A stretch of 64,000 nucleotides of DNA from Phocaeicola oris (GTDB lineage: Bacteria > Bacteroidota > Bacteroidia > Bacteroidales > Bacteroidaceae). Position numbers and translations under genes: made by a program. Location: the NCBI RefSeq assembly GCF_021295095.1, contig NZ_JAJLQX010000005.1, positions 62,001 to 126,000 of the forward strand, in the 5' to 3' direction. Under the pieces are notes generated by a model. It ran no database searches and had not been told where the DNA came from. It saw nothing but the letters and a program-made list of their open reading frames with translations. This document shows, in pieces, positions 17,929 to 23,059 of the stretch. Position 1 is the first letter of the stretch, and the number at the start of each line of letters is the position of its first letter.

Positions 17929-18171
17929 ATGACACTGTTTGAAATACTTTACTTTAACAGGGAGCTGATAAAAAGACTTCAAAGCGTGGGTTTTAAGCCT
18001 AATGACTGTCGTTATATTGATCTTTATAACGACTATGTCCGTATGTACAACCAAGGGGATAAAGTTACTTATATCGTTTCCTCGCTGTCCGAAAAATACA
18101 AAGTGAGCGAGCGCAAAATCTACAGTATCATCAAACGCTTCGGAACGAACTGCATGAAAGGTGCAGTATGA
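17929..18171 (+). CDS. Mor-like transcription activator
   Basis: An 80-residue protein whose C-terminal half (about 42-72, YIVSSLSEKYKVSERKIYSI) forms a helix-turn-helix like that of the Mor/C activators of Mu. In Mu, Mor turns on middle transcription. Here the gene is far to the right, after the tail genes and ahead of the modification genes, so it may control those or another promoter. It is preceded by the structured inverted repeat and followed by the methylase after 66 bases. Assignment rests on the HTH pattern and on phage type. Confidence 0.6.
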   Translation: MTLFEILYFNRELIKRLQSVGFKPNDCRYIDLYNDYVRMYNQGDKVTYIVSSLSEKYKVSERKIYSIIKRFGTNCMKGAV

Positions 18172-18237: not shown

Positions 18238-19068
18238 ATGAGAAAGCAATATCTATCGGCACCGCTTCCATTTCAGGGGCAGAAGCGAATGTTCGCAAAG
18301 GAGTACATCAAGGTGCTTCAACAGTTCCCTGACGGTACGACATTCGTGGACTTGTTTGGTGGCAGCGGTCTGCTGTCCCACATAACAAAGTGCCATAAAC
18401 CCAATTCTGTAGTCGTGTATAATGATTTTGACGGCTACCGACAACGCTTGGAAGCGTTGCCCGTTACCAACGTCTTACTGGCAGAGTTGAGGGAAATCGT
18501 CGATGTTCCAAGACGCAAGGCTATCTTGGGACAATCAAAGGAACGTGTACTGTCCTGCATTAGAAAATATGAAAGGAAGTATGACTACATTGACTATATT
18601 ACACTGTCATCGTCAGTTCTTTTCTCCATGAAGTATGCGACCAAGTTCTCTGATTTAGAAAAAGAAACCTTATACAACAACATCAAGACCTCGGATTACC
18701 CACCCTGCCCGGACTATCTTGCAGGTTTGACCATAACCACCTGCGACTACAAGACCCTTTTTGAAAAATACAAGGACGTCCCGAACGTCGTGTTCATCGT
18801 TGACCCGCCGTATCTAAGTACAGATACCAAAACCTATAAAATGTATTGGAAGCTGTCTGATTACCTTGATGTCCTGACCATACTCGCCGGACATCGTTTT
18901 ATCTATTTCACGTCGAACAAATCCTCTATTGTAGAGTTGTGCGAATGGATAGGAAAACATAAACTGATTGGCAACCCGTTTGAGAACTGCCACCGCAAGA
19001 AGTTTAATGCCCACATGAATTATAGTTCTTCCTATACGGACATCATGCTTTATACAGACGTCGCTTGA
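18238..19068 (+). CDS. Dam-type N6-adenine DNA methyltransferase
   Basis: A 276-residue D12-class (alpha group) adenine methyltransferase. Motif X is APLPFQGQKRMFAKEYI near residues 8-24, motif I (SAM binding) is FVDLFGGSGLL near 36-46, and the catalytic motif IV is DPPYL near 185-189. No restriction endonuclease lies beside it, so it is an orphan enzyme, probably protecting phage DNA or marking it for regulation, as Dam does for Mu mom. Its site specificity cannot be read from sequence. It is followed 22 bases later by the thymidylate-synthase-like gene. Confidence 0.9.
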   Translation: MRKQYLSAPLPFQGQKRMFAKEYIKVLQQFPDGTTFVDLFGGSGLLSHITKCHKPNSVVVYNDFDGYRQRLEALPVTNVLLAELREIVDVPRRKAILGQSKERVLSCIRKYERKYDYIDYITLSSSVLFSMKYATKFSDLEKETLYNNIKTSDYPPCPDYLAGLTITTCDYKTLFEKYKDVPNVVFIVDPPYLSTDTKTYKMYWKLSDYLDVLTILAGHRFIYFTSNKSSIVELCEWIGKHKLIGNPFENCHRKKFNAHMNYSSSYTDIMLYTDVA

Positions 19069-19090: not shown

Positions 19091-19732
19091 ATGATGAATA
19101 AATACTATCAGATACTCGGCAATGTGCTCGACAAAGGAAAGAAGCAGCACAACAAGAAAGGCGATATACGCTACCTGCTGAACGAACGGTTGTCCTTAAC
19201 ACCGGCCGACCTCCTCGACATCTTCGAGAGCCACGGAATCGCACGCAAGAAATTGAGAAATGAACTGGAGCTGTTTATGCAAGGTGAGCGAAATATAGAG
19301 CGATACAGGGAAGTGGGCATAAATTGGTGGGACTATTGCGGCAGCGTATTGGTAAATAGTTATCCGACATACTTTGAGAAACTACCTCCGCTCATTGAGA
19401 AGATAAACAGGGAAAAGCGCAACAGCAAGAATTACGTACTGTTTTTGGGAGAGACTGGCGCGGAAAGCAATCAGGCACCGTGTTTGAGCCTTGTTCAATT
19501 TCAGATAGATGACGGGGAACTGGTACTGTCAGCATATCAAAGAAGCAGTGATGCCAACTTGGGACTGCCTGCGGACATATACCACTTATACTTGATGACA
19601 CGACAGATTGACCTACCCTTGAAGTCCATCACTTTAAACCTTGGGAACGTGCATATCTACGAAAACAATGTGGAGCGCACCAAGCAACTGCTTGCCGGTG
19701 ATGAAAGCGTGAAGTTTGAACTTAATGTGTAG
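19091..19732 (+). CDS. Divergent thymidylate-synthase-family protein
   Basis: 213 residues that align along most of ThyA: KYYQILGNVLDKGK at the start, ELFMQGERNIERY, WWDYC (W80 in both numberings), catalytic APC with Cys131, the dUMP-binding YQRSSDANLGLP (Arg151, Asp154) and HIY near 188-190. Differences matter. The Asn that selects uracil (E. coli N177) is Asp162, the replacement found in dCMP hydroxymethylases. The double-Arg phosphate site (R126/R127) reads K-N, the segment with Tyr94 is replaced, His147 is Leu, and the C-terminal closing segment is absent. Prediction: a dCMP/cytosine-directed (hydroxy)methylase or a repurposed fold, not an ordinary ThyA. Start ATG 19091 or 19094. Confidence 0.75.
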   Translation: MMNKYYQILGNVLDKGKKQHNKKGDIRYLLNERLSLTPADLLDIFESHGIARKKLRNELELFMQGERNIERYREVGINWWDYCGSVLVNSYPTYFEKLPPLIEKINREKRNSKNYVLFLGETGAESNQAPCLSLVQFQIDDGELVLSAYQRSSDANLGLPADIYHLYLMTRQIDLPLKSITLNLGNVHIYENNVERTKQLLAGDESVKFELNV

Positions 19733-19765: not shown

Positions 19766-19808
19766 GAAAGAAACGTTCCAAAATATAATGTTTTTGGGAC
19801 GTTTCTTT
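19766..19808 (+). terminator. Hairpin after the prophage modification genes
   Basis: Arms agaaacgttccaaaa and tttttgggacgtttct pair with a single G-T wobble around a short AT-rich loop and end in a partly T-rich stretch. It lies about 35 bases after the last phage gene and can end that transcript. Each arm also contains the acgtttc core of the neighbouring repeats, in opposite orientations, so it may double as a pair of transposase sites. Confidence 0.55.
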
Positions 19809-19831: not shown

Positions 19832-19890
19832 GAACGTTTCGTTTTACTAATTGTAACGCTTCGTTCTAAATGGCACGAACATTTCGTTTT
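19832..19890 (+). repeat. Three direct repeats, likely transposase-binding right end
   Basis: gaacgtttcgtttt (19832), taacgcttcgttct (19854) and gaacatttcgtttt (19877) are copies of one 14-base motif spaced 22 and 23 bases apart, two helical turns. Mu has MuA-binding sites of about 22 bp at its right end with CGTTTC/CGAAA cores, so this looks like R-site architecture. The location, between the last phage gene and the secDF terminator, supports this. Confidence 0.6.
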
Positions 19891-19944
19891 GCGGATTATA
19901 TGTATCTTTTTTACAAAACGATTAGATTATTTTTGGCATATAAC

Positions 19945-19999: not shown

Positions 20000-22900
20000 T
20001 TACGCCTTTGCCGAGGCAGTTTTATCTTCTTTAGTTTTCGTTTCCTTTGGTCTACGCTTGCCCATTACCAAGAATGCTGTTGGAGCAGCGATGAACAAAG
20101 AAGAACATGTACCGATTATAACACCGAGAATCATTGCAAATGAGAAGCTTCGGATGCTTTCACCACCAAGGATAAAGATACATAACAATACAATTAATGT
20201 ACTAATTGATGTATTGATAGTACGAGCTAACGTTTGGTTCAAAGAATCATTAAACAACGTGAAGTGATCGCGTTTCGGGTATAAGTGGAAGTTTTCACGG
20301 ATACGGTCAAATACAACCACCTTATCATTGATAGAGTAACCGATAGCAGTCAGGATAGCACCAATAAATGTCTGGTCAATTTCCAAAGAGAATGGAGCCC
20401 ATCCGTAACATAATGAGTATGCGCCTATAATTAATAAGGTATCAACACACAATGCAATGGTCGCGCCAATACTGAAAGAGATATCACGGAATCGGATGAG
20501 GATGTACAAGCCAATGGCAATCAAGGCTAATACAACCGACCAGATAGCAGAAGTCTTAATATCTTCAGCAATACTTGGGCCAACCTTCTGGGAACTGATA
20601 ATAGAACCACCTTCACGGTTATCACGGTCGATGAACTTTTCATAAGAAGTATTCTGGTCAAGTAAGTTTCCTGATGCAAGTGCGTTATATAAGAAATGCT
20701 CGATTTCAGAATCAATAGTAGGAGAATCCTCGTTGATTCGATAGTTAGTAGAAATACGAATCGTCTTATGATCGGTTCCTAATGCAATAGCCTGAACATT
20801 AGATCCCGTTGCTTGAATAGAGTCGTTTTGTGATAATAAACCACGAACAGTTTCCGGCTCAACTTGTTTTTCGAATTGAACGACAAAGTTACGACCTCCG
20901 GTGAAGTCGATACTCTGTGATAAACCACGCACAAAGAATGAGACAACGCTGATAAGAATCAGTACTCCGAAGAAAGAATAAGTACGTTTCCAGATGGCCA
21001 TAAACTTATAATGCGTATTCTGCATTAAGTTCCTTGAGACATTGGTTGTGAATGTCAGGTTAATCCACTTATCTTTATTTAAGAAGTGTTCGTAAACAAT
21101 GCGTGTTACGAATACAGCAGTAAAGAAAGAGCAAAGGATACCGATAATTAACGTAGTCGCAAATCCTCGAATAGGACCGGTACCGAAATTAAACAAGATT
21201 ATACCGGTAATGATAGAAGTGAAGTTAGAGTCGAAGATAGCGGAGAAAGCATTAGAGTAACCAGCAGCTAATGCCGCCTTAACGCCTTTTCCGGCTTTCA
21301 TCTCTTCTTTGGTACGCTCATAGATCAACACATTGGCATCGACCGCCATTCCTAACGATAAGACCATACCGGCAATACCGGACATAGTTAATGCTGCTTG
21401 GAAGGAAGTTAAAATACCTAAAGTGAAGAAGAAATTGAGAATCAAAGCTCCGTTGGCAACCATTCCCGGAATAAGACCATACATGCTGCACATGTAAATC
21501 ATCAACAGAATCAATGCAACGATGAATGAAACAATACCTTGATTAATAGATTCTTGACCTAATGACGGACCAACGATATCTTCTTGAACAATACGTGCAG
21601 GTGCCGGCATCTTACCAGACTTCAAAACGTTAGCTAAGTCTTTTGTTGTTTCAATGGTGAAGTTACCGGTAATTTCAGAGCTACCGCCATTGATTTCATT
21701 CATAACATTAGGAGCACTATATACATAACCATCCAAAACGATAGCGATAGAACGGTTGATATTGTTTTTAGTCAGCTGAGCCCATCGACGAGCACCATCG
21801 TTGTTCATAGTCATACTGACTGATGGGCGACTGTGTTGATCGTATGCGTCGTGAGCATCGGTGATTACGTCACCTTCCAGAGGGGCACGACCATTGCGCT
21901 CTGTAACTTTAATACCGTAAAGTTCGAATATACGTTCCGACTTATCCCAATCAGCTGCGCTAACTCCCCATTTCAGTTTCAAATCTTTTGGAAGGATAGC
22001 TTGTGCTTCTTTAGAGTTTAAGTATTGATTGATAACTGTTGTATCTCTATAGTCGGCATAACCGGCAATAGCGCCACCCTGCTGATTGTTTAACTGCAAA
22101 ATAGCAGTTAACGGATGTTCTTTCTTCATCTGTTCCAGAGCTGCTTTATCTTGAGCAGATTCTGCGGTCTTGCCTTTCAATACATTTGCAAGGCTGTCGG
22201 TGGAAGTGGTGACAGTGCTTTCTGCAGCTTTAGTCGCGTCCGCAATTGCGGCAGAATCTTTTGCCGCGATAGCTGTTGTGTCAACGGCGTTACCATTTGC
22301 GAGAGCATCATGTAAACGTGAATCGAGAGCTGTTAAGTATGGATACACCTCGCTTGGATAATAAGTCTCCCAGAACTCTAAGTTCGCGGACCCTTGTAAT
22401 AGTTTTCTTACACGTTCCGGCTCTTTGATACCAGGCAATTCAACCATGATACGCCCCATACTGCCTTCCAAGTTTTGAATGTTAGGCTGTACGACACCAA
22501 AGCGGTCGATACGGGTACGCAATACGTTGAAAGAGTTGTCGACAGCAGACTTAACTTCCTCGCGTAGTACTTTTTCTACTTCAGCATCAGTACTACGTGT
22601 GTTGACTTTATCTTTCAATTGTTGAGTAGCAAAGAGTTCTGCTAATTTTGCATTGGGAGCTAAACGCTTATATTCACGTACGAATAGGGTGATAAAGTCA
22701 TCTTGACTAGCTACCGATTGCTTAGAAGCATTTGCTACCGCCTGATTGAAAATAGGGTCAGCTTTATGGTCAGCCAAAGCTTTAACAACATCTGGCACAG
22801 AAACTTCGAGGATGACGTTCATACCACCTTTCAAGTCCAAGCCCAGACCAATTTCCATCTCACGACATTTTTTTAACGTATAGCCCAGAACCGGATATAC

Positions 22901-23059
22901 TTTCTTGTTCTGCATCGAGTCCAAGTAGTGTTGTTCTCCCTGTGGGTCTTGTTTTGCCTTGTTCATCTGATAACGAGTCACGAACGAGAAGGACAGGTAG
23001 AACAAACAAACCAAGGTCAAAGCTATAGCCAAAAACTTAACAAGTCCTTTGTTTTGCAT
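20000..23059 (-). CDS. secDF: SecD-SecF fused protein translocase subunit
   Basis: A 1,019-residue single-chain SecDF, the fused form found in Bacteroidetes. It uses the proton gradient to help pull exported proteins through SecYEG. The SecD signature LGLDLKGGMNVILEV is near residues 53-67 and the SecF signature DFTGGRNF near 709-716. There is an N-terminal membrane helix, two sets of C-terminal membrane helices, and a large periplasmic domain with a low-complexity Ala/Thr/Ser insert at about 240-300. The start follows a TATATTTG box. The gene stands alone; the prophage inserted just beyond its terminator, leaving it intact. Confidence 0.95.
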   Translation of the reverse strand: MQNKGLVKFLAIALTLVCLFYLSFSFVTRYQMNKAKQDPQGEQHYLDSMQNKKVYPVLGYTLKKCREMEIGLGLDLKGGMNVILEVSVPDVVKALADHKADPIFNQAVANASKQSVASQDDFITLFVREYKRLAPNAKLAELFATQQLKDKVNTRSTDAEVEKVLREEVKSAVDNSFNVLRTRIDRFGVVQPNIQNLEGSMGRIMVELPGIKEPERVRKLLQGSANLEFWETYYPSEVYPYLTALDSRLHDALANGNAVDTTAIAAKDSAAIADATKAAESTVTTSTDSLANVLKGKTAESAQDKAALEQMKKEHPLTAILQLNNQQGGAIAGYADYRDTTVINQYLNSKEAQAILPKDLKLKWGVSAADWDKSERIFELYGIKVTERNGRAPLEGDVITDAHDAYDQHSRPSVSMTMNNDGARRWAQLTKNNINRSIAIVLDGYVYSAPNVMNEINGGSSEITGNFTIETTKDLANVLKSGKMPAPARIVQEDIVGPSLGQESINQGIVSFIVALILLMIYMCSMYGLIPGMVANGALILNFFFTLGILTSFQAALTMSGIAGMVLSLGMAVDANVLIYERTKEEMKAGKGVKAALAAGYSNAFSAIFDSNFTSIITGIILFNFGTGPIRGFATTLIIGILCSFFTAVFVTRIVYEHFLNKDKWINLTFTTNVSRNLMQNTHYKFMAIWKRTYSFFGVLILISVVSFFVRGLSQSIDFTGGRNFVVQFEKQVEPETVRGLLSQNDSIQATGSNVQAIALGTDHKTIRISTNYRINEDSPTIDSEIEHFLYNALASGNLLDQNTSYEKFIDRDNREGGSIISSQKVGPSIAEDIKTSAIWSVVLALIAIGLYILIRFRDISFSIGATIALCVDTLLIIGAYSLCYGWAPFSLEIDQTFIGAILTAIGYSINDKVVVFDRIRENFHLYPKRDHFTLFNDSLNQTLARTINTSISTLIVLLCIFILGGESIRSFSFAMILGVIIGTCSSLFIAAPTAFLVMGKRRPKETKTKEDKTASAKA

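Follow-up and report, generated by a model that had tools for sequence, protein, structure and literature searches.

In thymidylate synthase (ThyA), the catalytic cysteine attacks C6 and the one-carbon unit is reduced to methyl. In the transposable phage Mu, com-mom is a right-end module, and the right-end region is late. In the chemistry of the thymidylate synthase superfamily, folate supplies a one-carbon unit to C5, and in T4 gp42 attack by water gives the hydroxymethyl product (PMC8670742). Two positions, 177 and 147 (numbered as in Escherichia coli ThyA), are the top two in separating contigs with modified DNA from contigs with unmodified DNA, residue 177 being mostly Asp in the former, and an Asn-to-Asp change at 177 shifts the preference of ThyA to dCMP (PMC8670742). 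Furthermore, His207 and Tyr209 bind the 3'-OH, and Ser, rather than Ala, at position 167 fits deoxyribose (PMC5175136). Hankyphage is called globally ubiquitous in the title of one report (PMC6199706), and its particles are made by a laboratory strain (PMC12135933). The present analysis is focused on a thymidylate synthase-like (TS-like) protein of a hankyphage-like prophage, which may put a mark on phage DNA.

The window, i.e., the whole stretch of 64,000 nucleotides of Phocaeicola oris DNA that was analysed, holds the right part of a hankyphage-like, Mu-type transposable prophage, in which the TS-like gene is the last gene (Table 1). The Mu-type assignment of the original prediction is borne out upstream by genes for a transposase (phrog_310) and for a DNA transposition protein (phrog_296), and the adjoining gene is indeed an adenine methylase of the D12 class. 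The open reading frame of the TS-like gene (19091-19732, +) spans 213 residues, and its best supported start is 19094 (Met2), giving 212 residues; among 71 distinct sequences, Met stands at position 2 in 67 and at position 1 in 9. In a profile search against ThyA, as had been proposed, the protein matches PF00303 (E 7.2e-20; 71.7 bits against a Pfam cut-off of 24.3) and solved thymidylate synthases (best E 3.5e-14) far above chance, and it also matches phrog_160 (E 1.4e-29); hhalign aligns it with the ThyA alignment over 202 columns (E 8.3e-18). With a PF00303 score over the curated cut-off and the catalytic Cys in 255/255 loci, the protein is, by sequence, a member of the thymidylate synthase superfamily, and the corresponding fold is predicted from the same sequence. 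The gene is found at 82-84% identity in 21 phage records, including hankyphages p00 and jmh43, where public records label it thymidylate synthase; beyond these 21 records, the next relatives among the matches listed are about 29% identical.

TABLE 1. Features around the prophage right end (positions in the window).
Feature	Position	Strand	Evidence
Mor-like small regulator, 80 aa, upstream of the slot	17929..18171	+	PF08765 E 1.4e-4, 22.3 bits (Pfam cut-off 24.9)
D12-class adenine DNA methyltransferase	18238..19068	+	PF02086 E 9.7e-7; phrog_56 3.7e-30; 61% identity to that of jmh43
TS-superfamily protein, Asp162 at the ThyA Asn177 position	19094..19732	+	212 aa from the conserved Met
Terminator-like hairpin GAAACGTTCC...GGGACGTTTC, then a T-rich stretch, just 3' of the TS-like gene	19770..19806	+	By eye
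Prophage right end, three AACNYTTCGTT repeats (from 19833, 19855 and 19878)	19833..19900	+	End at about 19900
1019-aa ORF beyond the prophage end	20000..23059	-	ORF list

The sequence GCGGATTATA closes the post-gene sequence in 11 of the 13 relatives compared, with different DNA beyond it in most, and is missing in relatives L006 and L104. The long reverse-strand ORF beyond the prophage end is presumably SecD/SecF-like, as judged by eye. Many viral contigs stop at, or a few bases from, the stop codon of the TS-like gene; provirus-calling tools habitually trim ends, and because the real end lies about 168 bases further here, these contig ends are attributed to such trimming. The reverse transcriptase and Avd of jmh43 gave no tblastn match (E<=1e-3) in positions 1-21000 of the window or in L437 and L438, so that the diversity-generating retroelement of jmh43 seems absent from the prophage stretch searched.

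Residue comparisons are based on 36 MAFFT realignments and on a subfamily set of 255 loci from viral contigs and genomes, which represent 215 distinct proteins and are partly non-independent; the window is counted once (L087), and L206 is left out, its contig being cut. The original prediction had singled out an Asp in place of the base-reading Asn of ThyA, and inspection of the residues aligned to E. coli N177, R126/R127 and C146 returned Asp, a vanished pair and Cys, respectively. Briefly, Asn177 corresponds to Asp162 in 36/36 realignments, and Asp occupies this position in 255/255 subfamily loci among the matches listed. Cys146, His147, Arg166, Ser167, Asp169 (a folate contact in ThyA), His207 and Tyr209 correspond to Cys131, Leu132, Arg151, Ser152, Asp154, His188 and Tyr190, each in 36/36 realignments, and Glu58 and Trp80 are numbered alike in both proteins, again in 36/36. 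Among the matches listed, the Cys146, Glu58, Trp80, Arg166, Ser167, Asp169, His207 and Tyr209 equivalents are invariant in 255/255 loci, which upholds the predicted retention of the catalytic Cys, and position 147 is Leu in 254/255. All 98 canonical proteins carry Asn at 177 and His at 147; among 82 gp42-type proteins, 177 is Asp in 82 and 147 is Thr in 81.

The loss of the double-Arg phosphate site was likewise correctly foreseen: the Arg126/127 pair is replaced by Ser112-Lys113 in 35/36 MAFFT realignments and by Lys113-Asn114 in 1/36, the latter being the register of phmmer and hhalign, and at most one basic residue remains whichever register is used. Two further positions vary with the alignment, as the Tyr94 equivalent is Leu87 in 21/36 realignments and by hhalign and Tyr94 in 15/36, and the Trp83 equivalent is Cys in 15/36. 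The C-terminal closing segment, described as lost in the original prediction, is a mixed case. Most of the C-terminus is gone, since hhalign stops at residue 224 of a 264-residue ThyA and at residue 205 of 212 in the TS-like protein, but a conserved end is still there, reading KFELNV or KFDLNV in 98/215 distinct proteins with near variants in most others; conservation of this KFxLNV-type end suggests that a short closing tail may remain.

The way in which the loci were collected bears on the Asp count. Conserved-peptide patterns served to find the relatives, and of 233, 238, 214 and 128 confirmed relatives the best 80 were taken each time; because one of the six patterns in the searches yielding 233, 214 and 128 relatives contains Asp162, those locus sets lean towards Asp162. 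The two-pattern search (best 80 of 238) is free of Asp162, one of its patterns containing Trp80, and gave Asp in 80/80 loci. One pattern used for the gp42 set likewise contains the Asp of gp42. The 241-locus alignment contains the window gene twice, as L082 and L087, and an internal stop was found in 1 of the first 80 loci (L050).

Comparison with hankyphage jmh43 indicates how strongly the protein is held. The TS-like protein is 83% identical in amino acids (dN 0.124; pS 0.857, synonymous sites being saturated) and is the best conserved of the six proteins compared, the others being the methylase (61%), regulator (59%), terminase (51%), endolysin (74%) and a tail protein (48%). Recent transfer, considered as an explanation of the 83% identity, is ruled out by the saturated synonymous sites. 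A related terminase is present in 48/50 viral records with a TS-like gene, at 23-60% identity to that of the window, in contrast to the 241 aligned loci, whose identity to the window TS-like protein is at least about 66%. Judged by these sequences, the gene is under strong purifying selection and is not decaying. The main alternative of the original prediction, loss of activity, therefore becomes unlikely, given the invariant active site together with strong purifying selection. In the form in which it would still apply, a catalytically dead protein would be retained for a structural or regulatory role or for RNA binding; the missing His147 and Arg pair, the loss of most C-terminal residues and the uncertain Tyr94 speak for this account, but Cys131, Glu58, Asp154, Asp162, His188 and Tyr190 are constant in the 255 loci among the matches listed, and we consider it improbable. 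An ordinary thymidylate synthase topping up dTMP, the function implied by the name in public records, is far less credible still. Its base-reading Asn177 is Asp in 255/255 loci among the matches listed and the Arg126/Arg127 pair is absent, the ThyA equivalog model of NCBIfam gives 59.7 bits against a cut-off of 327, and the host genome itself encodes a full-length ThyA. TIGR03284 gives 57.4 bits against 108.35; eight NCBIfam models for thymidylate synthase match the protein, all with scores under their own cut-off.

In a quick, unrooted tree of 72 rows, one branch sets off the subfamily (SH-aLRT 99), another the gp42 types (99) and a third the canonical proteins (94); the stems of the subfamily and of gp42 are very long, which makes the deeper joins unsafe. 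On this sequence-based tree, the TS-like subfamily is a clade of its own, apart from ThyA and from T4 gp42, with which it does not group. The two may be sisters, as the branch parting both from ThyA has an SH-aLRT of 94.

Genomic place provides the strongest new evidence. Among 45 phage records related by terminase, right ends were examined in seven. Hankyphages p00 and jmh43 carry the TS-like gene and a methylase there, whereas the corresponding place is taken by Mom (PF25680, 1.1e-62) in the Elizabethkingia phage, by a D12 methylase in Winogradskyella phage Peternella_1, by a gene annotated as a putative DNA methyltransferase in Flavobacterium phage fF4, and by an ABC-GNAT protein with a formyltransferase in Porphyromonas phage phage007a; no slot gene was found at the right end of Bacteroides phage BKO1-TP4. 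A tblastn search (E<=1) for the TS-like gene gave no match either in phage007a, whose record was searched in full, or in the Elizabethkingia, Peternella_1, fF4 and BKO1-TP4 phages, of which the right-end pieces were searched. Modification of a DNA base has been predicted for a GNAT protein coupled to an ABC ATPase (PMC7824862), and the ABC-GNAT assignment here is made from weak Pfam matches (ABC 25.0 bits, cut-off 25; GNAT 23.2 bits, cut-off 20.7). From its occupants in these relatives, the right-end slot is regarded as a DNA-modification slot like Mu com-mom, and occupancy of this slot supports a DNA-modifying role of the TS-like protein.

Within 2.5 kb of the TS-like gene, a D12 methylase like that of the window occurs in 180 of the 255 loci, another D12 methylase in 7, and ABC-GNAT in 2 (L021 and L130, probably the same phage, with a formyltransferase too in L130). 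No modification gene was recognised beside the TS-like gene in 26/255 loci with both flanks of at least 1.2 kb, nor in 40/255 further loci, where flanks are cut. The Mor-like regulator was recognised in 145/255 loci, and 16/29 members of its family match Mor at E<=0.01. The regulator alignment was also searched in viral contigs as an anchor (best 80 of 143 loci), a check biased towards the TS-like gene because the alignment came from gene-bearing loci and several of the contigs were already among those retrieved earlier. The TS-like gene lies downstream of the regulator in 55 of these loci (52 with the methylase, 1 with ABC-GNAT and 2 alone); the other 25 hold a D12 methylase (14), ABC-GNAT and/or formyltransferase (6), Mom (1) or nothing recognised (4, in one of which the contig stops 59 bases on). 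Apart from these four loci and BKO1-TP4, the place matches that of Mom and DNA methylases in related phages. Among Bacteroidota transposable phages, the TS-like gene is the one seen most often in this right-end slot, and we regard it as their counterpart of Mu com-mom.

Several other arrangements were seen in this region. The order of the two genes varies, the methylase being first in 28 of 80 loci and the TS-like gene first in 40, with no such methylase in 12. In L477, L478 and L489, the regulator is followed by a protein of 153-161 residues, HU-like by eye, with no recognised modification gene. ABC-GNAT with, directly after it, a short protein that has a formyltransferase domain (PF00551) occupies the slot in L130 (6926-8032 and 8007-8495) and L440 (33280-34883), and likewise in L449, L451, L480 and L481; the two matches lie close together in Pseudomonas phage PQ287647, and a formyltransferase is found in 5/10 Porphyromonas records. 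A folate-dependent formylation step in DNA modification is possible for this pair.

Asp162 makes cytosine the most likely base, a prediction well supported by residues and place rather than by chemistry, the support from the neighbourhood being guilt by association. The reading that we favour, at about even confidence, is that the TS-like protein is an active folate-dependent cytosine modifier of phage DNA that forms a phage subfamily of its own. Cys131 would attack C6 of the cytosine read by Asp162, methylene-tetrahydrofolate would hand a one-carbon unit to cytosine C5, and the resulting base (5-hydroxymethylcytosine, 5-methylcytosine or a derivative) would end in phage DNA and shield it from host restriction; such a modification would probably serve anti-restriction. 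The missing long C-terminus suggests, as a guess, an open site and a hydroxymethyl product, and removal of the C5 proton is left without explanation because the Tyr94 equivalent is uncertain and His147 is Leu. The Cys at the Trp83 position in 15/36 realignments and the absence of the phosphate Arg pair count against this reading, as do the 26 loci with long flanks and 40 with cut flanks in which no modification gene was recognised, the BKO1-TP4 right end, and the recognition of the anchoring regulator in only 145/255 loci. The cytosine-modifying role of the original prediction is accordingly supported in part, by the Asp at all loci listed and by the slot.

Cytosine could be modified at the dCMP or the DNA level, and the two are weighted about evenly because host kinases could serve. 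At the nucleotide level, as in T4, the protein would be a dCMP hydroxymethylase or methylase, host kinases would convert the product to the triphosphate, and incorporation at replication would give partial substitution. The residues holding a mononucleotide (Arg166, Ser167, His207 and Tyr209 equivalents, for the 5' phosphate and 3'-OH) are invariant, which suits this route. To our knowledge, no TS relative acts on DNA, and DNA-level action would be the first. Cytidylate kinase was found in 0/51 phage records with a TS-like gene, some of which are possibly fragments; the annotation of jmh43, in which many genes are listed as hypothetical, names no kinase, dCTPase or polymerase, and none was matched among the 10 early ORFs scanned in the prophage. 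Together with a slot that houses DNA modifiers and the loss of the R126/R127 pair, these results weigh against the nucleotide route, which, taken singly, we regard as possible but rather doubtful, and the Ser at 167, suited to deoxyribose (PMC5175136), weighs for it.

At the DNA level, cytosine in phage DNA would be modified directly after replication, as by Mom or a methyltransferase. The slot common to Mom, D12 methylases and ABC-GNAT, the lost Arg pair and the absence of nucleotide pathway genes from those searches point this way, as does the position of the gene, which corresponds to the late region of Mu; the mean net charge of the subfamily is +2.0, against -3.5 in the ThyA set and -4.4 in the gp42 set, with -1 for the window protein itself. 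Apart from the want of any known precedent, the protein bears no recognisable DNA-binding addition and is shorter than ThyA, and the 3'-OH-binding residues equivalent to His207 and Tyr209 are retained (PMC5175136); on its own, this route is unlikely.

A counter-defence function would leave the DNA unmodified, the protein acting on or binding a cytosine nucleotide signal or pool of host defence. The gene shares its slot with likely counter-restriction genes and retains the mononucleotide pocket residues, but the other recognised occupants modify DNA, by demonstration or by prediction, or accompany a gene that does (formyltransferase), and the signal is hypothetical; this account is at least as improbable as a dead enzyme. 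Separately, a dedicated DUF4406 partner, nucleoside-deoxyribosyltransferase-like as in the MilA/MilB pair, was considered and rejected: it is found in just 18/50 TS-bearing viral records and 0/4 named phage records, and is therefore not obligate. MilB belongs to the nucleoside-deoxyribosyltransferase-like family. A DUF4406, nucleoside 2-deoxyribosyltransferase-like protein lies in the prophage early region (L437:15625-15939; G000:C46:55624-55938).

Literature searches turned up no described function for the TS-like subfamily in the text available, and the word thymidylate is not in the main text, as available, of four papers on hankyphage and its kin (PMC12135933, PMC6199706, PMC10367356, PMC12629997). 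If the cytosine-modifier reading is true, hankyphages bear a cytosine modification absent from the literature search results, and its maker is a subfamily labelled thymidylate synthase in public records; should the enzyme act on DNA, one more protein family would join the known nucleic-acid base modifiers. The novelty claimed in the original prediction holds for action on DNA, as the enzyme would be new in kind solely in that case, but not for cytosine modification by Asp-bearing members, which is known from T4 gp42 and MilA. The boldest version, to which we give little credence, is that this would be the first TS-type enzyme to act on cytosine inside DNA, after replication and with a folate donor, replacing Mom in common gut phages, and that at least one member, L130 (Bacteroides clarus), with ABC-GNAT and formyltransferase, would hold a two-reagent folate-based hypermodification set.

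Compared with known systems, the TS-like protein shares with ThyA (PF00303) the catalytic Cys, Glu58, Arg166, Ser167, Asp169, His207 and Tyr209, and differs in having Asp for Asn177, Leu for His147 and no Arg126/127 pair, and in being about 50 residues shorter. T4 gp42, which has a role in phage DNA modification according to its record note, is alike in its Asp at 177, its non-His residue at 147 and the common catalytic core. By contrast, gp42 lies on a long branch, aligns with the TS-like subfamily over only 74 columns (E 2.2e-6) and retains the phosphate-position Arg (Arg123, invariant in 19 rows), whereas the TS-like gene has lost the pair and is accompanied by no detected cytidylate kinase and, in jmh43, by no annotated dCTPase or glucosyltransferase. 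The CMP hydroxymethylases MilA and BcmA also have Asp at the base-reading position and, if the phmmer/hhalign register is true, are alike in a Lys at the Arg126 place, but they carry the Ala at 167 that goes with ribose acceptance, where the TS-like subfamily has Ser152 in 255/255 loci among the matches listed (PMC5175136). Mu com-mom differs in that the TS-like protein belongs to another protein family and would, by its Asp, target cytosine rather than adenine; the two are alike in the last right-end slot and the small Mor-like regulator upstream, and Mom itself occupies this slot in relatives.
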